Both the position numbers and the translations under genes were made by a program. Positions 2,456 through 45,295 of a stretch of 64,000 nucleotides of DNA are shown here, one piece after another (positions within the stretch are counted from its first letter, which is position 1; the number at the start of each line of letters is the position of its first letter). The stretch is taken from positions 124,001 through 188,000 of the forward strand of contig JBBDXD010000018.1 of the NCBI GenBank assembly GCA_040902535.1. Direction: 5' to 3'. The DNA is from Dehalococcoidia bacterium (GTDB lineage: Bacteria > Chloroflexota > Dehalococcoidia > DSTF01 > JACRBR01). Under the pieces are notes generated by a model. That model was not told the origin of the DNA. It ran no database searches and was given only the letters and a program-made list of their open reading frames with translations.

Positions 2456-2796
2456 TCATCCCCTTCGACGCGCGTCGGGTACGACGGCAGGCTGCGCTTG
2501 AGAAAGCCGGGGAACGTGGCATCCATCAGCATCCTGTACCAGGCGGGATGCGTCACCCAGCCGCAGACGCCGCCATCGGTGACGTCGAAGCGGGAACCGT
2601 GCCCCTGGCAGGTGACGACCGTGCCGTCGAGCGTGCCATTGTGCAGCCGGTAGCGGAGGTGCGTGCAGCGGTCGCCCACGGCATAGGCTTCGCCGTCGAT
2701 GTTGGCGACGAGCACTTCCTTGCCGCGCGCCTTGACGCCTTTCATGGTCCCCGCCGGGATATCCGACAGCCTCGCGACGCGCACGAATTCGGCCAC
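2437..2796 (-). CDS. Rieske-type [2Fe-2S] ferredoxin
   Basis: A 119-residue protein made of one Rieske domain, a soluble electron carrier like those serving ring-hydroxylating oxygenases and nitrite reductases. The cluster ligands are visible as C44-T-H46 and C63-Q-G-H66 followed by GSRFDV. The first ligand loop (CTHLRYRL) is less typical than the usual C-P-H-x-G. The GTG at 2796 is chosen because a strong GGGAGGAG ribosome-binding site precedes it; the longer frame upstream runs into repeat DNA and has no homology signature. No oxygenase partner is adjacent, so its redox partner is unknown. Confidence 0.88.
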   Translation of the reverse strand: MAEFVRVARLSDIPAGTMKGVKARGKEVLVANIDGEAYAVGDRCTHLRYRLHNGTLDGTVVTCQGHGSRFDVTDGGVCGWVTHPAWYRMLMDATFPGFLKRSLPSYPTRVEGDDVYVEL

Positions 2797-2864
2797 ATGC
2801 TCCTCCCTGCGTAGATTCGGGCGCGATTGTAACCGACGGTGTACGCAGGCGCTACGCACACGGG

Positions 2865-2935
2865 AAGAACCTGGAAACCTGGAACCTGGAACCAGTTCTA
2901 AAAGTTCCAGGTTCTGGGTTCTCACAACGGCGCTC
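2865..2935. repeat. Heptad array GGAACCT / AGGTTCC hairpin
   Basis: Four copies of a GGAACCT-type heptamer are followed, after a short loop, by GTTCCAG/GTTCTGG-type complements, so the array can fold on itself. It lies in the divergent region between the Rieske gene and the next plus-strand gene. The same GTTCCAG heptamer recurs near 41.12 kb. Confidence 0.75.
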
Positions 2936-2982
2936 CTTACCGAAAACGCAGGCAACCACTAGCCCGCCACACCGGCCGCCCG

Positions 2983-2990
2983 ATATATGA
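2983..2990 (+). promoter_or_regulatory. -10 box TATATGAT
   Basis: A TATATGAT sequence lies 19 bases before an SD-led ATG at 3009. It would give a short leader containing GGAGG. Confidence 0.5.
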
Positions 2991-3008
2991 TCTTCTTGGA
3001 GGTGCGCC

Positions 3009-3419
3009 ATGACGCGCGACCGCGACGAGTTCGAGGGCATCGACATCAGCGGCCCGTGGGGCGGCATCCGGCTCGGCTCCGGCGGCTTCCGCCGCGACGA
3101 ATGGGACGACGACGCCGAGGTGCGCGCCGTCCGCAGGCGCGTGCGCCAGCGCCTCGACTTCCTGAAGAACCTGGCGTTCTTCGGGCTGATCGTCGGCGGG
3201 CTGGCGCTGCTCGATTGGGCGACGGGCGGCGGCTGGTGGGTGCAGTGGGTGGCGATCATCTGGGGCGCCTTCCTCGCCATGCAGTTCCTGACGACGTTCA
3301 TGGCGCCCGTGCTCTGGGGCCGCGAGGCGGAGGAGCGGATGGTCCAGCGCGAGCTGGAGCGGCGGCGCGGGAGCGCGCGCGTCCAACACCCGCCGCGTGG
3401 CGACGGCCCGGACGCGTAG
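3009..3419 (+). CDS. Small 2TM membrane protein
   Basis: A 136-residue protein with an acidic, Gly-rich N-terminus, an Arg-rich stretch (residues ~39-50), then two hydrophobic helices (about 56-72 and 76-98) with a Gly/Trp-rich turn between them, and a basic C-terminal tail. The layout resembles the 2TM domain found alone or next to sensor proteins, but there is no catalytic motif. The start is set by GGAGGTGCGCC before ATG. Function unknown. Confidence 0.75.
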   Translation: MTRDRDEFEGIDISGPWGGIRLGSGGFRRDEWDDDAEVRAVRRRVRQRLDFLKNLAFFGLIVGGLALLDWATGGGWWVQWVAIIWGAFLAMQFLTTFMAPVLWGREAEERMVQRELERRRGSARVQHPPRGDGPDA

Positions 3420-6395: not shown

Positions 6396-7814
6396 GTGAC
6401 CACAGAACCGGCGCGCGAGCGATCGTTCCTGGGCAACGTCAACATCGTGATGCTGACGTACGCCGCCGACGGCTTGCTGGCGCTGGCGACGGGAGCGCTG
6501 GTTGCGCGCGCGCTCGGCGCCGACGGGCGCGGCGCCTACGCGCTGTTCGTAGTGTCGGCGGCATTCGGACAGTTGTTGCTGGGACTGGGCATCGGCAACG
6601 CGGCGCTCTATTACCTGAACAAGCGCGAACTCAGCGTGAAGGACGTGCTCGGCGTCGTGCACTTCGTCGTGCTGGCGTCCGTGGCGATCACCGCCGCCGT
6701 GGTCGCCGTCATCGCGCCGATCGACACGAACTTCGGCTCGATCGGCGGCCACGAGATCGGATTTACGGGCGAGTCGATCTTCGGCGCCGGCATCTCGCCG
6801 TGGTTGCTGGTGGCGTCGGTGCCGGTGCTGCTCTACATGAGCCTGCTCAGGCTCGTGCTGCAGGCTCAGAGCCGCTTCGTCGATCTGGGCGTTGCGACGG
6901 TCGGGCAGCAGTCGGCGCTGCTCGCACTCGTCGCGTTCGCGTTCGCGACCGGCGATCCCGATGGTACCGACGTAGTGCTCTTCCTGCTCGCGGGGAGCGG
7001 TGCGGCGGCGATCTACGCCCTGGCGCGCATCGGCTTTTCGCAGGTCGACCTGGCGTGGCTCGTACGGCCGCGCTTCGGCGTCATCAGGCGGCTCGCGCGG
7101 TGGGGCGTGCAGGGCGAGATCGGCAACGTGCTGCAGCTTGCCAACTATCGTCTCGACCAGTACATCGTGCGCGACTTCGTGTCCCTGACGGCGGTCGGCG
7201 TCTACGCCGTCGGCACGTCGATGACGGAAGCAGTCTTCATCCTGTCGAACGCCGTCGCGCTGGTGCTGCTGCCGCGGCTCACGTCCGCGGACCCGGAGGA
7301 GGCGGCGCGGCTGGCGCCCGTCGCGTCGCGCAACACGATGCTCATCGCGACGTGCGGCGCGCTGGCGCTTGCGGCGGTGGCGCCGCTGCTCATCCCGGCC
7401 GTCTTCGGTGATGCGTTCGAAGACAGCGTGCAGGCGTTGTGGCTGTTGCTGCCGGGGACCGTCGCGCTGGCCGGCTCCAAGGTGCTCACGAGTTACATCT
7501 TCAGCCAGGGGCGGCCGCTCGTGAACACCGGCATCACCGTCGTATCGCTGGTCGTGACGGTGGTCGCGGACCTGGCGCTGATCCCGCGCTTCGGCGTCAA
7601 CGGCGCCGCGACGGCCTCGTCACTGGCGTACGTTGCGCACTTCGCGGCGGCGCTGTTCGCGTACAACCGCCTGTCCGGGCGGCCCGCCCTCGCCGCCGTC
7701 CTGCCGCGACGGGAGGACGCCGCGCTCTATACCGGCGCCGTGCGTGCGTTGATAGCCCGGAGATCGTCTTCAGGGCGTGTCGGCGCGGGCAGCGAGACCG
7801 GCGCCCGTCCGTGA
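6396..7814 (+). CDS. Polysaccharide flippase (Wzx/PST type)
   Basis: A 472-residue integral membrane protein with about 12-14 hydrophobic helices and the family start (NVNIVMLTYAADGLLALATG...LGADGRGAYAL). Such proteins flip lipid-linked glycan units across the cytoplasmic membrane. Its place between two GT4 genes supports a role in exporting their product. The GTG at 6396 is chosen because the first helix follows directly and TACAAT ends 7 bases before it. Its stop overlaps the GTG of the next gene in GTGA, so the two are translationally coupled. Confidence 0.9.
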   Translation: MTTEPARERSFLGNVNIVMLTYAADGLLALATGALVARALGADGRGAYALFVVSAAFGQLLLGLGIGNAALYYLNKRELSVKDVLGVVHFVVLASVAITAAVVAVIAPIDTNFGSIGGHEIGFTGESIFGAGISPWLLVASVPVLLYMSLLRLVLQAQSRFVDLGVATVGQQSALLALVAFAFATGDPDGTDVVLFLLAGSGAAAIYALARIGFSQVDLAWLVRPRFGVIRRLARWGVQGEIGNVLQLANYRLDQYIVRDFVSLTAVGVYAVGTSMTEAVFILSNAVALVLLPRLTSADPEEAARLAPVASRNTMLIATCGALALAAVAPLLIPAVFGDAFEDSVQALWLLLPGTVALAGSKVLTSYIFSQGRPLVNTGITVVSLVVTVVADLALIPRFGVNGAATASSLAYVAHFAAALFAYNRLSGRPALAAVLPRREDAALYTGAVRALIARRSSSGRVGAGSETGARP

Positions 7815-34754: not shown

Positions 34755-34965
34755 CGCCTGCATCTCTGGTTCCTACGGGGTTAGCTGACGGATTCGGGCT
34801 CGAGACGTGCCCTACTCGCCGCCATCGGCGAGATTCACCCCACCCGCTACGAAGCTAACAGACCCGCGATTGCGAAAGCATTGCGACATCGCGGATGGAA
34901 GCATCGTGGCGGTATCTGGTTCCCCCGTTCCGCGCTCGCGACGGGGGCGCGGATTCGGCCAGGCT
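34755..34965 (-). ncRNA. c-di-AMP riboswitch (ydaO-yuaA type)
   Basis: Read on the minus strand, the leader has the conserved blocks of the ydaO class in order: GGGGGAACC near 34918-34927, GGGGTGAATC, a CTCGCC...GGCGAG stem, TAGGGC, and CCGAATCCGTCAGCTAACC followed by CCGTAGG (about 34773-34797). These are the family's ligand-binding junctions. It lies directly upstream of the TreT-paralog/treT/glgC/GH57 operon. In the known class c-di-AMP binding switches genes off, often for osmolyte, potassium and wall functions. The exact ends of the element are estimated; no clear terminator was identified behind it. Confidence 0.9.
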
Positions 34966-35288
34966 CGTTATGAAACATCCTAATCTTGCAGGTGAGACGC
35001 TGTCAATTTCCATAATGCGCGGACATCACGCAGCAACGGAGTTGCAAACCGCGACCGAAGCTACAGCGCGACGTAACGCCGCATCAAGCATCGAAAAAAT
35101 GAATAGCAGCTACGATGACGTATCATCGCTCACGGCTGCACGCTCGTCGGTCGGCAGAGGATTCGTATGTTGTCATCCGTCGCCCCCTCGCGTCACACAC
35201 TGCTTACAGCTGACGGCGGGGGTGGGGGTTAGGACACTGTGGGGTCAGATCCACGACGGAACGACGTGTCAACGGAGTACTGATAGAC
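34966..35288. other. Non-coding stretch upstream of the riboswitch
   Basis: Base composition is lower in GC than the coding DNA on both sides. Open frames here lack codon bias and start signals. It presumably holds the promoter for the riboswitch operon on the minus strand, but I cannot pick a convincing -35/-10 pair. Confidence 0.4.
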
Positions 35289-36191
35289 TCACTTAGTGGA
35301 TCCGACGAATGAAACCAGCGAGCCCAGATCCGCTTCCCAAAATAAATAGATGCCGTTCGTCTGCGCACTGGCGAGGTTCTCAAGGCTGAAAGCACCGGCC
35401 AGTACGGCTCCAGTGACGGCTTGATTGCCAAACTCATTTCTCCACACTGTCTCCTTGCGTCCAACTTCGGCATTCAATCGCTTGTAGCTATTGACCTCAG
35501 AATTCGACACCTTGCATTCCAGCAAGAGAAGGCGACCATCCCAGAGGCCCACCGATAGGTCTGCGCGCGTGCTTGAGACCATTGACTGACGACAGTACGT
35601 ACCCGTCTCTAGATCCCGAATGGACCGGATGGCTCGGGCGGACTCCTTCTTGAATCCGATGCTGCTGAGAACGGCATCGACAGCGGCCTCCTGGCGCTTG
35701 GATGACTCGCCCCTTCTCTCTGTTGATGCCTTCTGCGCTGCGAGCAGGCCCGCAGTCCAAGCGACGGCCAGTCGCCGTTCCTCCGCTAAGGGCGCACGGG
35801 GTGGTGTCTCGAATAGCCATGGAAACCTCAGCGGATCTCGCGCGCTAACAATGACATCAACCAGATCTTGTAATCGGTCCGGCTCCCATAATCTTTTCAT
35901 TCGTGCGAGAATCTTTAGATCGTCGCTACTCAGTGGTGGTCCGGCGACGTAACGCGCGGCCTCGCGAATCGACTTCTCGCCACGAAGCAGCGTGTCCTTC
36001 GAGAGGTTCCGGAGATCGTTCGAGATCGAAAGCAGCCGCTCGACTGACTCAACTGCCGTCGCGTAGTGATTACGATGGGAAGTGTTGCCCTTTTCCTGAA
36101 ACCACGAAATGAAGGCGTCTATAGAGCGATCGGGTATAAGGGTGAGTTGGTCGCGCGTCCACGTTTGAGGCAGGGCGCGCCGATCAGCCAT
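35289..36191 (-). CDS. XamI-like type II restriction endonuclease
   Basis: A 300-residue protein matching the XamI family, whose prototype cuts GTCGAC. The nuclease core near the C-terminus has ADLSVGLWDGRLLLLECKVSNSEVNSYKRLN, here cited in parts: the Asp of ADL and the E-C-K pair are the likely PD-(D/E)xK residues. Then GAFSLENLASAQ and LFWEADL follow the family pattern. It is intact in length. Its ATG overlaps the stop of the methyltransferase frame by 8 bases, the usual R-M arrangement. The methyltransferase is frameshifted, which makes an active nuclease surprising. Confidence 0.85.
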   Translation of the reverse strand: MADRRALPQTWTRDQLTLIPDRSIDAFISWFQEKGNTSHRNHYATAVESVERLLSISNDLRNLSKDTLLRGEKSIREAARYVAGPPLSSDDLKILARMKRLWEPDRLQDLVDVIVSARDPLRFPWLFETPPRAPLAEERRLAVAWTAGLLAAQKASTERRGESSKRQEAAVDAVLSSIGFKKESARAIRSIRDLETGTYCRQSMVSSTRADLSVGLWDGRLLLLECKVSNSEVNSYKRLNAEVGRKETVWRNEFGNQAVTGAVLAGAFSLENLASAQTNGIYLFWEADLGSLVSFVGSTK

Positions 36192-37790
36192 CAGTCACCC
36201 ATTTGAACCGAAGCGCCTCCATCTCTCGCGGCTCAAATTTCTCGAGCCCGCCTTGATAGGTTCGACCCATCCCTGTGAACGAGGCGCGTGAGCCGTTTAG
36301 GGATCTGACCAGCAATTGCAGGCGCTCTTGAGGCAAGTCCTCTCCGGGGTAAAGCCCATGGGCGACATTTATGATTCCAAGTCGATCAGGATTCAGCGCG
36401 AAGCGAGGCGGCTGTCTGGCCATATACGACGCCACGATTGGTGGTCGACGAATGGTTCCTAGATTCCACCACGATCGCCGATGTGTGCAAAGATATCGCT
36501 GGCTGATGGGAAGGCCATCAAGAATCTCTTCCTCGCCCATGCGCAAGTACTGGTCGACTTCCGGATGCGATGCACGATCCACGTCGCGGGGAAAGACAAC
36601 CAGCACTTTCCTCTCCTCGCCGTCGCGGATCTCAAAGTTAGACTGAAGAATCTCTCGTCCGTCGGAGACTACTGGCACACACCAGCGTTCGATGCCGAAG
36701 AGCTTGGCTTCCTGCCGGCTAATGACGAAGAAGCCGTTGGCGCCAGTCGCAATGCCGCGGTGCACGCGGGCGATCTCCCCCAGGGATTGGAGGCCCTCCG
36801 CATGGGGTGTACGGTCTAAGAGAGCTGGCGTCCACCGCTCTGCGTGAATGAGCGAGTCCAACGCAATGGTGCGACCTGAGCCGATTTGGGGGCCAGCCAC
36901 CTTTCGCGATCCAAGCGACACGGAAACGCCACCACGATCAGAGGTCACCTCGAAACACACGATAGCACCGGTGGTTTGCGCGTCTTCGAATGGCATGGTG
37001 TGGCGATCGATCAAATGGATGGCCTGAAGTCCGAGTCCATTCGTGAGAAGGTTGCGTACCACTTTGCCGTAGGCCACATCGAGCCATTCAGAGCTCGTGA
37101 TGAAACACCCGAGGTCGCAAGGCTGTGCTTGTAACGCAGTTGCGACGAAGAAATATACGTGCAGCCCGGCGAGACGCGAGGCGATGTGCCCCGTCTTGGC
37201 TGCCGCTTCGCTCAACCACGTTTGTTCTGCTGATCGATCTGATGGTGGCGCACGTATGGCGGGTTCCCAACCCACGCGGTGCGCCCGTCGATTCGAGGAA
37301 TGGTGGTAGTGGTGAAGTCCGAATTGAAAACGCGTGCGCGACGAGCTCCCAACGTTTTAAGGTTCGCTCTCGTGACAAGCGTAGAAAACGGATCGAGATC
37401 AACCGCGATGACGTCAACGTTTGCGTCTCGGCGTACCACGCTACTGGCGAAGCGCCCCGAGCCGCATCCCGCGTCCACGACGCGTTGAGGCTGCGCGATC
37501 CATCACCCAGTCAACCATCGGCTCAACGATCGTCGAAGGCGTGAAAATGGCTCCTAGGGATCGCTTCTCAACGGCAGACCGCATGTCCGAGAGAATCCTT
37601 CCAAGTGGATCATCTCCGCCGCCGATCAAGTGACGGAATTGTTCGATCTGGCTTCGCGGTGTGGGCGGGCAACTGGCTGCCTCTTCGATGACAGCTGACT
37701 CTGCCGCGGATAGGCCCCCCCGAATTCCCCCGCGCCCAAATCCGCTGCAAGACGTGCGAGCACCCACTCCAGAGCTGTCACAGTCGCCAT
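36184..37790 (-). pseudogene. N6-adenine DNA methyltransferase, frameshifted three times
   Basis: The pieces of one ~535-residue methyltransferase lie in alternating frames. From the start: MATVTALEWVLARLAADL, then a switch at a run of seven G (near 37715-37721); LSAAESAVIEEAAS to GAIFTPSTIVEPMVDWVMD; a switch near 37490; VVDAGCGSGRF (motif I) to WVGNPPYVRHH (motif IV); a switch near 37222; and TWLSEAAAKTGHIASR to the end. The partner is the XamI-like nuclease. A TATAAT box on the minus strand (37818-37823) lies 28 bases before the ATG. Either the gene is dead or the assembly has indels; one G added to the G-run would restore the first join. Confidence 0.8.
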
Positions 37791-38059: not shown

Positions 38060-38494
38060 ATGATTAACCGCCTGCGCGACTTCTTCCGCAACGAGCTCAT
38101 CGGCATCACGATCCCCGTCGGCGTCGTCGCCGGACTCGCGCTCTCAGAGCTGTTGCGTACTGCCTTCCTTTATATGCTCACGCCATTGCTCTCCCAGACA
38201 CCGCTGGGCGATGAGGAGGAGGGGTTCAGCAACTTCGGATTCACGGACCTCGACTTCAACATCGGCGATGCAAGCATTTCGTATGGCATTCCGCTCGTCG
38301 ATCTTCTTACGTTGGCGTTCGCTGCACTCATTGCCTGGTGGCTCTTCGTCCGCCCAACTGCCGCCGAACTCGCGGCAGCCGGCGACGACGACGGCATGCG
38401 CGAATGCCTCGAGTGCAAATCATCGATCGTCGCAGACGCCACCCGTTGCGCCTTCTGCACGGCGCGAGTTGTTCCCGTCAGCGCTGAGAGCTGA
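38060..38494 (+). CDS. MscL-like mechanosensitive channel with zinc ribbon
   Basis: A 144-residue protein. The first ~105 residues resemble MscL: an amphipathic start (LRDFFRNELIG), a first helix (ITIPVGVVAGLALSELL), a loop, and a second helix (IPLVDLLTLAFAALIAWWLF). The C-terminus ends with C-x2-C...C-x2-C (ECLECKSSIVADATRCAFC), a ribbon also seen on some actinobacterial MscL proteins. Such channels release solutes on hypo-osmotic shock. ATG 38060 has AAGGGGAG eight bases upstream. The match to MscL is moderate. Confidence 0.72.
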   Translation: MINRLRDFFRNELIGITIPVGVVAGLALSELLRTAFLYMLTPLLSQTPLGDEEEGFSNFGFTDLDFNIGDASISYGIPLVDLLTLAFAALIAWWLFVRPTAAELAAAGDDDGMRECLECKSSIVADATRCAFCTARVVPVSAES

Positions 38495-38548
38495 CTGCTG
38501 ACTGCTGACAGCTAACCGCTGACCGCTGATCGCGGACGGCCGACCGCT
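38484..38548. repeat. Heptad array GCTGACT between convergent genes
   Basis: About nine 7-base units (GCTGAGA, GCTGACT, GCTGACT, GCTGACA, GCTAACC, GCTGACC, GCTGATC, GCGGACG, GCCGACC) fill the whole gap between the mscL-like and arlI stops. The first unit supplies the mscL-like stop codon and the array runs up to the arlI stop. Confidence 0.8.
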
Positions 38549-40319
38549 AAAACAGCCCCTGCTTCTGCGCCTTCGACAGGAGCTTGAACAACTCGTAGAA
38601 GTTGTTGACGCCGGACTCGGCGAGCTTTTGCAGCAGCGCGCCGCGGCGGTCGACTTCTTTGTAGATCTCGCGCCGGCGCTTCTCCGAGAGGCCGCGCGAC
38701 GGGGCGATGCGCTGCTCCAGCAGGTAGCTGTTGTTCAGCCCGACGAACTCGAACTCGTCCTTCACCGGGTCCCAGCGGAAAATCTCGACGAACGAAAACG
38801 ATCCCTGCACCGGGTCGTAGCCGATGATCTCGCTGATGCTGATCAGCCGGCGCCCCGACTTGCCGCTCGGCAGCCGCACGGCGCTCGCGATCACCACGAC
38901 GTTCAGGTTATCGACGTACGTCCGCGGCACGCTGATCGGCGCGCCGGTGATGCGCTGGATCAGCTTCTCGACGGTCGCCGCGTGGAACGTCGCGCTGACG
39001 GCGTGGCCGGTCATCATCGCCTGGAATGCGATGTTGCCCTCTTCGCCGCGGATCTCGCCGATGATGATCATGTTTGGGCGCTGCCGAAGCGCCGCCTTGA
39101 GGAGCGCGAACATATCGACGCCCGTCCCCTGCGACGACGCGCCGCGCACCACTTCGCGCGTCCAGTTCGGGTGCGGCACGACGACTTCGGGCGTGTCTTC
39201 GATGCTGACGATCTTGGCGTGCGGCGGCACGAACGTCATCAGCGCGTTCATCAGCGTCGTCTTGCCAGATGCGGTCTCGCCGGACACGAAGAAGTTCAGC
39301 CCCTCCTCGACGACGAGCGACAGGTAACCGCACATCTGGTACGTCATCATCCCCGACTCGCAGATGTCGATGACGCTGAGCGGGATGCCCATGAACTTTC
39401 TGATCGTGAAGTTCGAGCCGTTCTTCGAAACGTCGCCGCCGTAGACGATGTTGATGCGCGAGCCATCGGGCAGCGTCGCATCGACGATCGGCGCCCGGAA
39501 CGTCACGGGCTTCTTCATCTTCTCGGCGAGCTTCAGCACGAAGTCATCCAGCTCTTCGTGCGAGTCGAAGTTGATGCTGCTCTTCAGCCCCTTGAACACC
39601 TTGTGCTCGATATACACCGGCCCGATGCCGCTGCACGAGATGTCTTCGATCCAGTTGTCGCTGATCAGCGGCTCCAGCGGCCCCATGCCGACTTTGTCGC
39701 GGATCACCATGTAGCGCAGGCTGTTGTAGTCCGTCGCCGTCACGCGCAGCCTCGAACCGCCGCCGCCGCTCTTCGACGCGAACGGCAACTTCAAGAAGCC
39801 GCCCTCGCCCGCATCGACGTTCGGCATCGTCGATGCCAGCGCCGGCTTCTCGCCGTCGATGACGTCGCACGAGTCATCGATCGCCTTCAGCAGCACCGCC
39901 GTCTTCTCTTCGGGCGTGTGCGCCTCCGCCAGGATCTCGACGAAGTCCAGCAGCCGGAACTCCATCTGCTCCAGCAAGTCGACGATCTTGTCCGACCCCG
40001 GCTCGATCGCGACGTACCAGTTACGGTCGCCCGCCGACTCCGGGTAGATGTGGATGAACGTGTTCTTGCCGACGGGGTAGATGAGGTTCGGCTCCTTGAG
40101 GTCGCCCATCTTGCGGCTGATCTCCGGGAAGTACTCCGGCACGCCGAACTCCGCCATCGGCACGCGGTGCAGGTACGCCATCAGGTGCGGGTTCGCGTCG
40201 GCCTGCTCGCGTAGCTCCGTCGCCAGGATGCCGTGGATCGGGCACGACGCCGCGACTGCGCCCGAATGACCATCGGGCAGCGCGTCCGGTGCGACGTCGA
40301 ACGGCAGTCGTGCCGGCAT
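38547..40319 (-). CDS. arlI: Archaellum/type IV pilus motor ATPase ArlI (FlaI)
   Basis: A 590-residue secretion ATPase of the archaeal FlaI kind. Walker A is SGETASGKTTLM (about residues 344-355), followed by SIEDTPEVVVPHPNWTREV, LKAALRQRPNMIIIGEIRGEE (Asp/His-box and Walker B region) and MTGHAVSATFHA. The long N-terminal domain (~220 residues) and the ending around FVEIFRWDPVKDEFEFVG are FlaI traits rather than PilB or GspE. It follows arlH by 9 bases, the order found in archaellum operons. ArlI drives assembly and rotation there. arlJ, which normally comes next, is absent here. Confidence 0.9.
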   Translation of the reverse strand: MPARLPFDVAPDALPDGHSGAVAASCPIHGILATELREQADANPHLMAYLHRVPMAEFGVPEYFPEISRKMGDLKEPNLIYPVGKNTFIHIYPESAGDRNWYVAIEPGSDKIVDLLEQMEFRLLDFVEILAEAHTPEEKTAVLLKAIDDSCDVIDGEKPALASTMPNVDAGEGGFLKLPFASKSGGGGSRLRVTATDYNSLRYMVIRDKVGMGPLEPLISDNWIEDISCSGIGPVYIEHKVFKGLKSSINFDSHEELDDFVLKLAEKMKKPVTFRAPIVDATLPDGSRINIVYGGDVSKNGSNFTIRKFMGIPLSVIDICESGMMTYQMCGYLSLVVEEGLNFFVSGETASGKTTLMNALMTFVPPHAKIVSIEDTPEVVVPHPNWTREVVRGASSQGTGVDMFALLKAALRQRPNMIIIGEIRGEEGNIAFQAMMTGHAVSATFHAATVEKLIQRITGAPISVPRTYVDNLNVVVIASAVRLPSGKSGRRLISISEIIGYDPVQGSFSFVEIFRWDPVKDEFEFVGLNNSYLLEQRIAPSRGLSEKRRREIYKEVDRRGALLQKLAESGVNNFYELFKLLSKAQKQGLF

Positions 40320-40328
40320 GCCCCGCCC

Positions 40329-41054
40329 CTACGCCTTCGCGCTCGATACCGGGATGATCTTCATCCCCAGCCCCGGCTCGACGTCGAAGTTGATGATGTT
40401 GCCCGTCGTCTTCTCGGCGCCGCGCACCTTCGCCACTTCGAGCACCTTCATGAGTTGATCGCGCATCTCCTCCGTCCGCAGCCGCAGGTGCGCATCGCAC
40501 AGCGAGCGGATGCGCATGAACATCGCCTCTTCAAACGCGTGCGAGTGCATGGTGAAGAAGATGGTCATGTTCTGGTCGACCAGCTCCTTCACCGCCGACA
40601 AGAATTGCAGCGTGTGCGACTCCGGCACCTGCGACACGAACGACGTCAGCGAATCGATGAACACGCAGTCGTAGCGGCCGAGCAGCGTGTTCATGTGCAT
40701 GAGCAGCTTGTGGAACGCCTTGTCCGCCGACTCCTCGTCCATCGCCGCCGGCACCGGGTACACGTTGAGCGCGCCGAGCAGGTAGAAGTCCGTCACGTCG
40801 AGGCTCAGGCTCGCCATCTGCCGGAACAGGCTGCGCGCCGTGTTCTCCGTCGTGTACAGCGACGCCCGGAAGCCCGCGTTCAGCGCGCCGTGTACGAGCT
40901 GCTGCGTGATCACGCTCTTGCCGGCGTTCGACGACCCCTCGATGAGGATCAGCGACCCTTCCGGGATGCCGCCGCCCATCTTCTTATCGATCTCGCTGCT
41001 TCCGGTCGAGACCGTCCGCCGCGTCCCGTCCATCACCGCATCAGTAACAGCCAC
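40329..41054 (-). CDS. arlH: KaiC-like motor regulator ArlH (FlaH)
   Basis: A 241-residue RecA/KaiC-type ATP-binding protein. Walker A reads GSSNAGKS (about residues 39-46), followed by the FlaH pattern ASLYTTENTARSLFRQMASL and DFYLLGALNVYPVP, with Walker B in YDCVFIDSLTSF. In archaella, ArlH forms a ring under the ArlI hexamer and tunes it through ATP binding. The GTG at 41054 has AAGGAGG five bases upstream. The pair arlH-arlI is read from here. Bacterial archaella have been reported in some Chloroflexota, which fits. Confidence 0.88.
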   Translation of the reverse strand: MAVTDAVMDGTRRTVSTGSSEIDKKMGGGIPEGSLILIEGSSNAGKSVITQQLVHGALNAGFRASLYTTENTARSLFRQMASLSLDVTDFYLLGALNVYPVPAAMDEESADKAFHKLLMHMNTLLGRYDCVFIDSLTSFVSQVPESHTLQFLSAVKELVDQNMTIFFTMHSHAFEEAMFMRIRSLCDAHLRLRTEEMRDQLMKVLEVAKVRGAEKTTGNIINFDVEPGLGMKIIPVSSAKA

Positions 41055-41071: not shown

Positions 41072-41150
41072 TGTCAGCTTTCAGCTATCAGCTATCAGCC
41101 GTCAGCGTTCAGCCCTCCCTCGTCCCCGGTTCCAAGTTCCAGGTTCGAGG
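41072..41150. repeat. Two adjacent heptad arrays (TCAGCTA and GTTCCAG)
   Basis: Six units of TCAGCTT/TCAGCTA/TCAGCCG type (about 41070-41112) are followed by GTTCCAA, GTTCCAG, GTTCGAG (41119-41142). Both have a strict 7-base period but different heptamers. They lie upstream of arlH in a 242-base gap without genes. Confidence 0.8.
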
Positions 41151-41296: not shown

Positions 41297-42160
41297 TTAG
41301 ATATTGAAGGCCATTTGCAAGCGCCGCCTCCGCGCGAGACGGAGCGTGGGCATCATCACCATGAGGATTTCTGAGACATCGGGCATTCGGACGGCATCCA
41401 CGAGGTAGCGTCCCAACACCCCTTCGATGCGCACGGTTTCCTCATCCCGCGCGGCACCTGCACAGAACGCTTCCGCGGCGGCACGACTGTGCAGCACGGT
41501 GCCAGGCGCAAAGCGATTAGGGATTGACCACGCGACAAATAGCCGGATCGTCTCCGGCTTGTCTTGTCGCCTCGTCGTAGCCTTTATTACAACCGTTCCC
41601 GGGTGCTCGCGCGTTAAGGCTTTGCTTGCTACGGCCGTGGAAACCTCGAACCGTTTCCTGCATTCAAGGACTTCCTGCACCGCGCTGATGCGCGCCGTCA
41701 CGCCAGGCGGCACTAGCAGCGCGGAGGCAAACAGATCGCAGAATCGCTCCTCTTGAGGACTGGGCGGAATAAGCCGGCGGGGTGGCGCCGAGGAGCGGTC
41801 ATAGAAGAAGCTATGACCGATTTCGTGCGCGATTCTGTATTGCGCGCGCTGCTCATCCGTGTCTCCTTCGCATTCAGCGAGTAGAGAGTCTGGAGGTGGC
41901 GGATCGTCGTCGACGAGAATGTCGAACGACCCGTCGAGACGCGGCACGAGGAGCGCTTCATGTCCTCCCGTGCCCGCCTCTAATGGCACGTAGCTGATAC
42001 GAAATCCGGCACGCTCGCACACCTGCTGGAAGTCACACGGGCCGCTCCAAGAGGCTGAACCAACCAGCGAAAACTCGCGTACTTCGAGTGCCAACTGCTC
42101 AGCCACACGATCACTTGGCACGGCTGCCAACTGCCACTGAGGCCAGCGATGTTTGTTCAT
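41297..42160 (-). CDS. ImmA/IrrE-type metallopeptidase
   Basis: A 287-residue protein with the zinc peptidase motif H112-E-I-G-H116 in QYRIAHEIGHSFFYD and the third-ligand helix ERFCDLFASALLVP, both hallmarks of the ImmA/IrrE (COG2856) family. Known members cut repressors to switch on mobile-element or stress genes, or act in toxin-antitoxin and defence loci. The C-terminal ~110 residues have no recognised domain. Its ATG shares one base with the stop of the HD gene (TGATG), so the two are translationally coupled. Confidence 0.85.
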   Translation of the reverse strand: MNKHRWPQWQLAAVPSDRVAEQLALEVREFSLVGSASWSGPCDFQQVCERAGFRISYVPLEAGTGGHEALLVPRLDGSFDILVDDDPPPPDSLLAECEGDTDEQRAQYRIAHEIGHSFFYDRSSAPPRRLIPPSPQEERFCDLFASALLVPPGVTARISAVQEVLECRKRFEVSTAVASKALTREHPGTVVIKATTRRQDKPETIRLFVAWSIPNRFAPGTVLHSRAAAEAFCAGAARDEETVRIEGVLGRYLVDAVRMPDVSEILMVMMPTLRLARRRRLQMAFNI

Positions 42161-44016
42161 CACATCAACCTCGGTTCGGCACCAAGTGACCCGTCTGAGG
42201 CGTCATCGTCCTCAGGGGCGCGGGTGAAATGTCGCCCGACGTCCTTCATCCGACTCATCACCCCCTCATATGTGTCTTCGCCGCCCCGGGCGGCGATGTC
42301 GGCGGCGCCGGCCATCAGTTCGTCTTCATACCGCCGCGGGAGGCTCAACTCTTTGAGCACCTGCCTGATCGCGAGATCAACCACCCTAGGCTTCTCGCGA
42401 GGAACGCCTTCCCATCTGATATTCAACCGCTCTGCGAGCCACGCAAGAATCACGGCTTGTTGTTCGTCCGTGACAGACCTATGCACGAAGACGCTTAAAG
42501 CCCAAAGTGCCTCATGGCTGGCATAGATCTCTCGGCCACGGTTGGCACCGCTCTTGTCCACCTGATCGAGAGGTGCCACTTGGGTGCCGTCGTCAACGAA
42601 CACCGAAGCCGCCTTCAACCGCATGTCCGGCGACGGAATCCACAGTACAACCTGCCACCGGTGCTCAAGTCCGGCGAAGCGTGCTACCTCCTGCTCTAGC
42701 GTCCGTCGTGAGTCGCGGCTGCCGTGCTTGTCATAGATTTGCGCGGCCATCGCAAGACTGGAGCAGCGCCCAACGAGCTGGAACAGCTTTCTATTGAGCA
42801 GAGCGCTCGCGAGGGCACTGACTGCGGCGCCACGTCTGCCGTTAGCGCTAGGAAGATCTACCGCCAAATGCTCAAGAAGACCGTCATCGCCTCGCGTGCG
42901 GAACGAGAGTTCCAATGCGTCTCGCACCTGTTCATCGATCGCCGCCAACTCGGCGCTGTGCGACTGACGGACCTTCGCTTTGATCTCGTCGATCTCCAGG
43001 TCTCGGTCTGCTGCCTTGATGACCTTCGGGAATCGGGTAGCGGCGGCATCGGCCCAAAGCAGATCTGCCCACATCTCTAGTGCCTTACCAACCATCGCAT
43101 CTGCGGCGAGCTTGGCGTGGTGCACTAGCGCGCGTTCACTGAGTTCGTAGCGGTATCGCAGGTACTTGAAGAGCTCCGAAACCACATCGGCCCGGGGGTG
43201 TCCATCACGGGCGATCTGGATCGCCATGCGCATGGGTAAGTAGGGATGGTCCTTGGGCGTTACATAGAAACCATCGATGAAGCGGTGCCCTAGTTTCGCT
43301 GGCAACCCGGTGAAGTGGTGATCGCGCGGGAGGTAATCGAGCAGGTCAGCACAGATCGTATTCCCGACTATGTCTTCCACGAACCTATAGCGCCGCGCAG
43401 GTTCGGGTAGATTCTCGCGATCCTCGATCTCCTTGGAGAGGATCAACGGTCGCAATGCAGCCTTCAGCTCCGGCGCGATCAATTCTCCGAGTTCGTCATG
43501 GTTCTCGATCTGCGCCCAGAAGTAGTCAAACCGGGCTACGTTCTTGTCGTGGGCATCCAGGATCTTGAGGTCGTCCTCGATAGAGTGTCCGAACGCGACA
43601 TGACCGAGGTCATGGAGCAACGCGCCTAACCGCGCGAGTACTGTCGCTTCCGCGAGCTTTAGCGCGTAGTCTGCAGGGTCCGCCTTCCATTGTTGGAACA
43701 GGTCACGTACAGGATGTAGACCGTCTCCTTGGGAGACGACGGCATCCAGAAGGTCTTGCGCGGCACGCAACGCGCCCACCGCGTGGAGAAATCGGCTGTG
43801 AGTCGCACCCGGATATACGAGGTGAGTCGTTCCGAGTTGCCGCACCCGCCTCAACCGCTGCATCGGCGGCGAGTCAAGGAACATTCGCTCGATTTCGTTG
43901 AGGTAGATATCGCCGTGTACCGGATCCGTGATGACTTTCTTCGGCACCAGCACTCTTGGGGGCAGGCTCCACGGGGCAAGTTCCCTCTGCTCTGGCGCTA
44001 ATCCCCACCTTGGCAT
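42160..44016 (-). CDS. HD-domain dNTPase-like protein (SAMHD1/dGTPase type)
   Basis: A 618-residue protein of the HD phosphohydrolase type. The metal ligands are visible: H73 in GATHSRFLHAVG, H135-D136 in LLHDLGHVAFGH, and Asp in ICADLLDYLPRDHHFTG. RVRQLGTTHLVYPGATHSRF is the SAMHD1-like entry. These enzymes remove triphosphate from dNTPs, and bacterial ones can block phage replication. A long C-terminal part (residues ~350-618) is family-specific. ATG 44016 with GGAGG six bases upstream is preferred over GTG 44028. Coupled to the ImmA gene. Confidence 0.87.
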   Translation of the reverse strand: MPRWGLAPEQRELAPWSLPPRVLVPKKVITDPVHGDIYLNEIERMFLDSPPMQRLRRVRQLGTTHLVYPGATHSRFLHAVGALRAAQDLLDAVVSQGDGLHPVRDLFQQWKADPADYALKLAEATVLARLGALLHDLGHVAFGHSIEDDLKILDAHDKNVARFDYFWAQIENHDELGELIAPELKAALRPLILSKEIEDRENLPEPARRYRFVEDIVGNTICADLLDYLPRDHHFTGLPAKLGHRFIDGFYVTPKDHPYLPMRMAIQIARDGHPRADVVSELFKYLRYRYELSERALVHHAKLAADAMVGKALEMWADLLWADAAATRFPKVIKAADRDLEIDEIKAKVRQSHSAELAAIDEQVRDALELSFRTRGDDGLLEHLAVDLPSANGRRGAAVSALASALLNRKLFQLVGRCSSLAMAAQIYDKHGSRDSRRTLEQEVARFAGLEHRWQVVLWIPSPDMRLKAASVFVDDGTQVAPLDQVDKSGANRGREIYASHEALWALSVFVHRSVTDEQQAVILAWLAERLNIRWEGVPREKPRVVDLAIRQVLKELSLPRRYEDELMAGAADIAARGGEDTYEGVMSRMKDVGRHFTRAPEDDDASDGSLGAEPRLM

Positions 44017-44340
44017 GGCTTCCTCCACAGGTTGTTGCTCGGTGCCGCCACGATTCTACCTCAGGATCCTCGGCATCTCGGTGCCGTTTATGTCACTCCT
44101 TGAGCCGCCGAAGCCGACACGCCGTGCTTCGGATCAGCGTTCGCGAGACTATCTTCAAATCACCCATCCCCCCAGTGACACAACCCCCTTAGCCCCACCC
44201 CACCCCCGCACTACACTAGCCCCCAACCAAACCCGCATCTGCGGCCATCTGTCCCCATCTGCGGACCACCCAAACAGGCTGACCGCTGACCGCCGCAACA
44301 CCCTGACTGACTGAACGACTGACTGAAGACTGAAAGACCG
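44017..44340. repeat. Decamer and heptad repeats between divergent genes
   Basis: No gene is seen. CATCTGCGGC-type units repeat three times with a 10-base period at about 44236-44266. Heptad-like GCTGACC units and then CTGACTG/GACTGAA units follow at 44278-44338, running up to the next ATG. The pyrimidine-rich run at 44180-44220 shows no further structure. Confidence 0.6.
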
Positions 44341-44910
44341 ATGGACTCACCCGCCACCTGGGGAGGCAAACGGCCCGGCGCCGGCGCCCCGCGAGGCAAC
44401 CTCAACGGCCTCAAGAACGGCCGCCGCTCGCCAAGGCTCCTCGCCTACCTGCGCGCCCTCGCCACCGACCCCGTCATGCAACGCTTCATCGTCGAAATGA
44501 TGCGCGTCGGCGCCCGCGGCGGCGATACCTCCGCGCTCGTCAAGCACGCCCTCAAGGGCGTCCCCATCACCGACGCGAAGCACGAGTACGCCCGCAGGCG
44601 CCTCCGCAGGCTCCGCAACGCCCGCGCCCGCCGCATCGAGCGCCTCGTCATGGCGCTCCCCCACGGCACGTGGATCGTCCCCCCGCCCGCCATCGAGCGA
44701 GACGCCGACGGCGGCCCCATCGTCTTCCTCCGCGAGACCGATGGCGCGCCCTACAACCCGCTCACCAACCGCTACGAGCCCGTGACGCCGGGCGTCTCCC
44801 GCACCATCACCGCCGCCCATCGACGCGTCCAGCGCGCCCTCCACCGCCGCTACTACGAAGACCTCCTCGAGTGGTGGGAAGAGGAATACAGCGACCCCCC
44901 GCTCGCATGA
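44341..44910 (+). CDS. Small basic protein with GAPRGNLNGLKNG motif
   Basis: A 189-residue protein. The N-terminus WGGKRPGAGAPRGNLNGLKNGRRS carries a motif common in phage and transposon-associated proteins of unknown role; it resembles the start of some small terminase-like proteins. The middle is Arg-rich and helical, and the end has many Tyr and Glu residues (RRYYEDLLEWWEEEYSD). No enzyme motif. It is adjacent to repeat DNA on both sides. Function unknown; the codon pattern supports a real gene. Confidence 0.6.
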   Translation: MDSPATWGGKRPGAGAPRGNLNGLKNGRRSPRLLAYLRALATDPVMQRFIVEMMRVGARGGDTSALVKHALKGVPITDAKHEYARRRLRRLRNARARRIERLVMALPHGTWIVPPPAIERDADGGPIVFLRETDGAPYNPLTNRYEPVTPGVSRTITAAHRRVQRALHRRYYEDLLEWWEEEYSDPPLA

Positions 44911-44940
44911 ACACCAGCACACTCGCCCCCACCCCCAAAC

Positions 44941-45295
44941 AACCTCTGTGCCTCTGCGCCTCGGCGGTTCCCGTCCCCGAAAAACCCAAACAACCTCTGG
45001 GTCTCCGCGACGCTGCGGTCCCCGTCCCCGAAAAACCCAAACAACCTCTGCGTCTCTGCGACTCTGCGGCCCCCGTCCTCGAAACATCCCCCAAGAAACC
45101 TCTGCGTCTCTGCGACTCTGCGGTTCCCGTCCCCGAAATGCCCAAACACCTCTGCTTCTTTGCGACTCTGCGGTTCCCGTCCCCGAAATGCCCAAACACA
45201 TCTGCTTCTCTGCGACTCTGCGGTTCCCGTCCCCGAAATGCCCAAACACTCTGTGCCTCTGTGCCTCTGTGGTTCCCGTCCCCCAAAGAGCGTGC
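44941..45295. repeat. Seven-unit ~51-bp tandem array built of 8-bp repeats
   Basis: Seven units begin near 44941, 44992, 45043, 45097, 45147, 45197 and 45247, so the spacing is 51, 51, 54, 50, 50 and 50. Each unit holds three octamers of the CCTCTGCG kind followed by GTTCCCGTCCCCGAAA and CCCAAACA. The octamer block resembles the CTCTGCGACTCTGCGG-like repeats scattered in many bacterial genomes. The spacing is not a multiple of three in the later units, so it is not a coding repeat. The rest up to 45432 shows nothing. Confidence 0.85.

Follow-up and report, generated by a model that had tools for sequence, protein, structure and literature searches.

Depletion of deoxynucleoside triphosphates (dNTPs) is an antiviral strategy common to animals, which employ SAMHD1, and to bacteria, which employ dGTPases and the Clover system. 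Clover is composed of the dGTPase CloA and the nucleotidyltransferase CloB, according to the available text of its report (PMC12265719). Among the zinc peptidases related to the one studied here, PprI carries a GAF-like C-terminal domain that is required for its activation by single-stranded DNA (ssDNA), and CapP, also activated by ssDNA, cleaves the repressor CapH to switch on immune operons, as stated in the accessible parts of the respective reports (PMC10904395 and PMC13373217). Here we describe a locus at which the two kinds of protein are found together: a gene for a SAMHD1-like HD phosphohydrolase coupled to a gene for an M78 peptidase, on a stretch of 64,000 nucleotides from a Dehalococcoidia bacterium of the Chloroflexota (positions 124,001 to 188,000 of contig JBBDXD010000018.1) that is referred to below as the window. 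An earlier annotation of this DNA, the original prediction, had regarded a two-gene defence or stress module as plausible, a view that is supported by the conservation of the pairing and by its defence-gene context. The pair probably represents a defence module of two genes that has not been described before. We give about even chances to a more specific reading, in which the module is mobile and its two proteins are the HD protein as dNTP-depleting effector and the peptidase as its sensor and controller.

Conservation and defence-gene context of the pair

The gene pair is real, and its coordinates, families and overlap have been confirmed. The HD gene (42160..44016, minus strand) runs from an ATG at 44016, with an alternative GTG start, likewise open, 12 bases upstream, to a TGA at 42162-42160, and encodes a SAMHD1-like phosphohydrolase of 618 amino acids (aa) that matches Pfam HD at 1.2e-6 (29.3 bits, cut-off 22). 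The second gene (41297..42160, minus strand; ATG at 42160, stop at 41297-41299) encodes a 287-aa zinc peptidase of the IrrE/PprI/CapP-like type (Pfam Peptidase_M78, 7.3e-5, 23.0 bits, cut-off 22). Inspection of the junction bore out the positions and the shared stop and start that had been predicted: in the TGATG at 42158..42162 (minus strand), the HD stop and the peptidase start have one base in common.

The query used to search genome contigs for relatives was built by aligning the window HD protein to its nearest Chloroflexota relative, and 80 of 82 relatives were kept. Three of these 80 loci, L037, L038 and L039, hold a full-length HD gene (43-46% identity), in each case beside an M78 gene, and none of the remaining 77 has an M78 neighbour; adjacency was judged in the loci fetched, many with flanks of about 1.5 kb and some on contigs that end nearby. 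Among 396 genomes in the phylum around L039, eight were matched at E <= 1e-20, L039's own included, and two of the other seven are paired (G660, locus L126, and G641, locus L136). The class around L037 (249 genomes) gave 11 genomes with a match, among them those of L037, L039 and G641 and a new paired one, G1103 (locus L145). The phylum around L051 gave six matches in 299 genomes, none of them paired. All seven full-length HD members found (the window, L037, L038, L039, L126, L136 and L145) are thus known to have an M78 neighbour, and the sources of the six beyond the window include Actinomycetota. Within the Chloroflexota, an HD match at E <= 1e-5 is present in 167 of 400 genomes, and among 30 loci fetched from these and subjected to a motif test, the window's own is the sole one with an M78 neighbour; the peptidase query detected four other matching genomes in 400 Chloroflexota genomes, with weak M78 matches only. 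The original prediction had itself considered that homologues of the two genes might rarely occur together. This holds for the wider SAMHD1-like HD family, which is mostly unpaired, and fails for the full-length subfamily.

The HD gene precedes the peptidase gene in five of the seven loci (window, L037, L039, L136 and L145) and follows it in the other two (L038 and L126). In six of the seven the genes overlap, by 1 nt in the window, L039 and L037, by 8 nt in L136 and L145, and by 31 nt in L126; the TGATG junction recurs in L039, and its counterpart in L037 is TAGTG. Since genomes hold merely one to three M78 genes each (four genomes counted), chance adjacency is negligible.

The paired HD proteins also form a single lineage. 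In a tree of 50 rows (seven paired, 23 unpaired close relatives and 20 distant ones), the paired proteins form one group with support of 89/68, which rises to 98/90 for the six without the long-branched L136, and the pairing requires one label change, a value as low as which was reached in none of 500 shuffles; the 23 unpaired rows are a chosen subset of the 80 contig loci plus L002, and L002 and L058 are identical. The paired members alone carry an extension at the C terminus of the HD protein, which in the window takes up about residues 544-618 (42163..42387, minus strand). After the LW motif, 103-143 residues follow in all seven paired proteins, against 31-46 in 20 of the 23 unpaired ones and 73 in another, the motif not being found in the last two. 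Pairwise identities of the HD proteins and the peptidases across the seven loci are correlated (r 0.885, exact permutation p 0.0028, with shared host ancestry uncontrolled and the L038 peptidase truncated), as expected for genes travelling together. The peptidase tree is weak and groups the HD-linked peptidases at 53/87; a motif filter left the other M78 sequences of L032, L159, L160 and L161 out of it.

Two kinds of relatives were excluded from membership. One, the short HD subfamily that is unpaired, is exemplified by L002, which is flanked by Der-like GTPase and PurF-like genes as read from its open reading frames (ORFs). The HD protein of a Desulfosarcina plasmid (L036) has nucleotidyltransferase, ThiF-family and Mov34 genes as neighbours; this 806-aa protein (7860-10280 of L036, plus strand) has a long C-terminal part of its own and lies a few kb from these annotated genes, which resemble an operon of the cyclic oligonucleotide-based antiphage signalling system (CBASS).

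The neighbourhood analysis proposed in the original prediction extended to the genes around the pairs. Matches to defence genes at E <= 1e-40 were found within 6 kb of the pair in five of seven paired loci, against a single control locus out of 15 (Fisher p 0.0043), and in four of six against one of 15 when the window is left out (p 0.011); this cut-off for a strong match was chosen after the matches were known, and the sample is small. The controls were 15 unpaired-HD loci with full flanks from other phyla (109 genes), whose genes were called and scanned with PADLOC in the same way. The window was tallied from a separate PADLOC scan, the gene caller having missed its restriction-modification (R-M) genes, and the defence scan includes a PD-Lambda-3_B match that is not assigned to a gene. 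The sole strong match in the controls is AbiEi (2e-58); at 1e-10 they show mad2 matches in four genes and an MTase_II match in at least one. Defence-island enrichment of the pair is supported by these counts, and the housekeeping operons that the original prediction had named as an alternative setting do not describe the full-length subfamily.

The genes concerned differ from locus to locus. Near the window pair lies an R-M system of the XamI type (methylase E 1.3e-78, PADLOC). In L037, the end of a type ISP/IIG restriction-methylase gene and the peptidase gene are 17 bases apart, and a restriction-methylase gene of the MmeI type follows after about 8 kb. L039 holds one gene of the Mrr type (PDC-S02, 2.7e-114), one that is ArdC-like and two for integrases. 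L136 has genes for a cytosine methylase, a restriction enzyme and a DUF6119 protein, with a recombinase gene farther out, and in L145 the pair is immediately preceded by HmaB/HmaC-type genes together with one for a DUF3644 (PDC-S19) protein. Two further genes adjoin paired loci. A nucleoside 2-deoxyribosyltransferase-like gene of L039 (5419-5904, minus strand; Pfam 1.4e-20), coding for another deoxynucleotide enzyme, is divergent from the HD gene at a distance of about 100 bases, and in L136 the peptidase gene is followed at once, on its own strand, by a third gene, which is UPF0489-like (2494-3255, minus strand; 254 aa, 1.5e-5).

The two proteins and their possible relationship

The HD protein retains its active site. 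The motif HSRFLH (residues 73-78; 43783..43800, minus strand) contains R75 and the first metal ligand, H78, both invariant in the seven paired proteins and in all 23 close relatives that are unpaired. Equally unchanged in the alignment of these 30 proteins are H135, D136, H139, H144, E147 and D148 of HDLGHVAFGHSIED (residues 135-148; 43573..43614, minus strand), which comprises the HD metal ligands and the catalytic His and Glu, and D224, Y228 and D232 of NTICADLLDYLPRD (residues 219-232; 43321..43362, minus strand), where D224 is the last metal ligand and the motif is one that, from SAMHD1, we take to contact the ribose. The earlier statement that all metal ligands are visible is therefore correct for H78, H135, D136 and D224. 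An AlphaFold2 model of the protein (mean predicted local distance difference test, pLDDT, 87.8; alignment of 35 window and locus proteins) has SAMHD1 as its top structural match (5ao4, Z 27.5 over 368 residues, root-mean-square deviation 3.1, 23% identity), and the bacterial SAMHD1-like enzymes 2hek and 2o6i follow with Z of 26.5 and 25.6. As modelled, the protein has a SAMHD1 fold with HD metal ligands and catalytic residues intact and, judged by this fold and these residues, it should hydrolyse dNTPs. Its residues D48, Q53 and R56 align with the allosteric site of SAMHD1. By profile comparison it is no member of the dGTPase models, since it scores 17.6 bits against NCBIfam TIGR01353 (dGTP_triPase), below the cut-off of 152.35, and matches PADLOC dGTPase in part (E 0.0011 over 32 residues).

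The peptidase is likewise intact. Its HEIGH motif (residues 112-116; 41813..41827, minus strand) had been recognised from the outset, and the HExxH signature is completed by a downstream Glu; H112, E113, H116 and E138 are invariant in ten of ten aligned M78 proteins. The model (pLDDT 81, ten-sequence alignment) matches PprI with ssDNA best (8sln, Z 17.5 over 215 residues), then IrrE (3dte, Z 17.2) and CapP (7t5t, Z 15.1, 224 aligned), and these matches extend across the peptidase, middle and C-terminal parts of the protein; a sequence profile recovers the PprI, IrrE and CapP families as well. Secondary structure assigned to the model with DSSP outlines a sensor-like C-terminal domain of GAF/PAS/Cache-like type at about residues 190-271 (41348..41593, minus strand). 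The PprI match (model residues 13-272) runs through this domain, and for residues 156-283 there are matches to many sensor domains. The designation of the protein as ImmA-type is consequently right as to the M78 (ImmA/IrrE) family and too narrow as to a bare ImmA domain, given that an IrrE/PprI/CapP-like protein with a sensor-like C-terminal domain fits better. An Arg seven residues ahead of the HExxH His, comparable to Arg85 of PprI in the accessible text of PMC10904395, is present in the peptidases of the window, L037, L136 and L145 and not in those of L038, L039 and L126, and is weak evidence on activation by ssDNA.

In the mechanism that we favour, the HD protein would be the effector, a SAMHD1-type enzyme whose hydrolysis of dNTPs starves the replication of invading phages or elements. 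The peptidase would be the controller: its sensor-like C-terminal domain would detect infection or DNA damage (ssDNA in the studied relatives), and the peptidase would then switch the HD protein, with which it is co-translated, through cleavage or binding, for which the C-terminal extension or its vicinity is the most likely place. We infer in these steps the dNTP substrate, the ssDNA or damage signal, and the direct control of the HD protein by the protease together with its direction. The extension unique to the paired HD proteins would be the best candidate for a region of contact or cleavage. In its most explicit form, a zymogen-like nucleotide-depletion immunity in which limited proteolysis of this extension by a protease that senses damage or infection would be the direct switch of a SAMHD1-type dNTPase, the idea is a tentative one.

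The kinship of the peptidase to CapP suggests a different form of control, at the level of transcription, in which the peptidase would cleave a helix-turn-helix (HTH) repressor after DNA damage and so induce the pair, perhaps along with defence genes nearby, leaving the HD protein untouched and still acting as dNTPase effector. The best PADLOC model for the window peptidase is indeed capP (1e-9, catalytic part only), and repressors are what PprI and CapP, functionally its nearest relatives, cleave according to the available parts of PMC10904395 and PMC13373217. A scan for HTH genes covering 118 of 125 ORFs over all seven loci revealed a possible CapH-like repressor in L126, a 97-aa HTH_31 (XRE-type) gene (7166-7456, plus strand; 7.9e-11) divergent from the peptidase gene. 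The other six loci have no clear HTH gene among ORFs of 45-400 aa within 1 kb, a weak HTH_17 match in L038 aside, and the HD protein is for this reason the best candidate for substrate or partner of the protease. The conserved 1-nt translational overlap and the occurrence of two gene orders also suggest a link at the protein level, and we consider transcriptional control of this kind unlikely.

Somewhat less probable still is an antitoxin-like arrangement, in which the peptidase holds a toxic HD protein off by binding or degrading it and interference of a phage with the peptidase sets the HD protein free. Co-translation would provide the fixed stoichiometry of HD protein and peptidase that such an arrangement calls for, and inactivation of CloB, the partner of the HD dNTPase in Clover, releases the toxicity of CloA (available text of PMC12265719). 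CloB works, however, through a nucleotide signal and not through proteolysis, and the paired peptidases retain every catalytic residue, so that mere binding is not the whole story.

Several observations weigh against a defence module with the HD protein as effector and the peptidase as its direct controller, the HTH gene of L126 being one of them. The SAMHD1 fold is also found in housekeeping dNTPases, and R56, aligned with the Arg of the SAMHD1 allosteric site, is lost in three of the seven paired HD proteins. L126 has integrase genes only, one adjoining the peptidase gene and an integrase-like fragment on the opposite side, and in L038, which shows no recognised defence genes in 13.8 kb, the peptidase ORF is truncated and the HD reading frame has a break at the 5' end. 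The family is rare, with metagenome-assembled genomes among the sources of six of the seven members, and no full-length relative of the window protein was detected in plasmid or phage records: the 38 plasmid and 11 phage records matched by the HD query cover about half of it at most, none reaching 80% coverage. The peptidase query gave no match in plasmids, and viral contigs gave one distant HD match.

The surroundings of L038, in which no defence genes are recognised, and the repair roles that SAMHD1 also has would suit a module outside defence, one of mobile or accessory regions that tunes dNTP pools or repair under DNA damage or replication stress. The DNA-damage response under PprI control, described in the available part of PMC10904395, would be in line with it. 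The sparse, horizontally acquired distribution of the pair and its strong association with defence genes make such a role about as improbable as the antitoxin-like arrangement, and a defence module under protease control is preferred.

Surroundings and acquisition of the pair in the window

The R-M remnant and the repeats mentioned in the original prediction are both present. An intact restriction endonuclease of the XamI type (35289..36191, minus strand; Pfam RE_XamI 2.4e-27, PADLOC REase_II 3.5e-33) lies beside a broken type II DNA methyltransferase (36184..37767, minus strand), whose pieces at 36184-37275, 37212-37478 and 37441-37767 lie in different frames and cover positions 245-579, 160-245 and 70-157 of a single PADLOC methyltransferase model. 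This broken system is placed 4-7 kb from the HD-peptidase pair. On the other side, a tandem array of seven 50-bp units (86% matches) occupies 44934-45287.

The pair is of foreign codon usage and has been horizontally acquired. GC content at third codon positions (GC3) is 0.68 in the HD gene, 0.65 in the peptidase gene and 0.62 in the R-M genes, against 0.81-0.93 in flanking genes taken as native (flaHI, TreT, HemB and others); an MscL-like ORF beside the R-M remnant has 0.73. Neither protein was matched in the three nearest genomes searched (two of the same family, one of the same order), where FlaH is present, and in the two same-family genomes no HD or peptidase relative was found in the 10-11 kb around flaH. 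The relatives that accompany the window protein in the HD tree suggest a chloroflexote as the source of the window.

The FlaH- and FlaI-like ATPase genes of the window begin about 240 bases downstream of the pair on the same strand. They belong to the KaiC and T2SSE families (38547-41054, minus strand) and represent archaellum-type motor genes in a bacterium, their names having been assigned from family and gene order; orthologues with 74-82% identity stand side by side in the two same-family genomes. Degenerate short repeats rich in CTGAC/TCAGC are found at 38482-38548, 41074-41114 and about 44280-44335, where the FlaHI block and the HD-peptidase pair have their edges, and are possibly module borders. 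Farther away, a cyclic di-AMP (ydaO/yuaA) riboswitch (34757-34970, minus strand; 68 bits) is located upstream of two trehalose-synthase-like glycosyltransferase genes.

Relation to known systems and meaning of the pairing

The HD protein shares its catalytic fold (Z 25-27.5), metal and catalytic residues and dNTP-type motifs with SAMHD1 and SAMHD1-like dNTPases such as those of Enterococcus faecalis (2o6i/4lrl) and Rhizophagus (9mr6), from which it differs in having no SAM domain, an extra C-terminal extension and a co-translated protease, at about 20-23% identity. The entry 9mr6 was considered as CloA and rejected, as it is SAMHD1 from Rhizophagus irregularis. With Clover and the anti-phage dGTPases, as presented in the available text of PMC12265719, the pair has in common an HD dNTPase-type enzyme, a regulator logic built on two genes, and a His and a Glu as catalytic residues. 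Where Clover has a nucleotidyltransferase as partner, the locus described here has a zinc protease, and no CloB-type partner was found among the window neighbours scanned with Pfam (the restriction endonuclease, a methyltransferase piece, FlaI, FlaH and the ORFs at 44341 and 45433). It resembles CapH+CapP, the controller of CBASS and other immune operons, in its CapP-like fold, its sensor-like C-terminal domain and the immune-type effector next to it, and departs from that system in having no CapH repressor beside the pair in six of seven loci and in the translational coupling of the peptidase to the effector itself. PprI/IrrE-DdrO of Deinococcus supplies the best fold match of the peptidase, yet no DdrO-type repressor gene was found beside the window pair, where the neighbour is a nucleotide hydrolase. 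The pair thus resembles a meeting of Clover or dGTPase systems with CapH+CapP and, on the features tested, is a member of neither. Its components are of known kinds; no description of an HD-M78 pairing was recognised in a search of the full-text literature, a source with subscription papers and supplements outside it.

How a dangerous dNTPase is kept off until it is needed is a live question. If the proposed reading is true, a protease of the IrrE/CapP type would be a switch different from the nucleotide signals of Clover, the known immune proteases of this type being ones that cut repressors. It would also account for the extra C-terminal part of the full-length HD subfamily, in a compact two-protein system that is open to testing.

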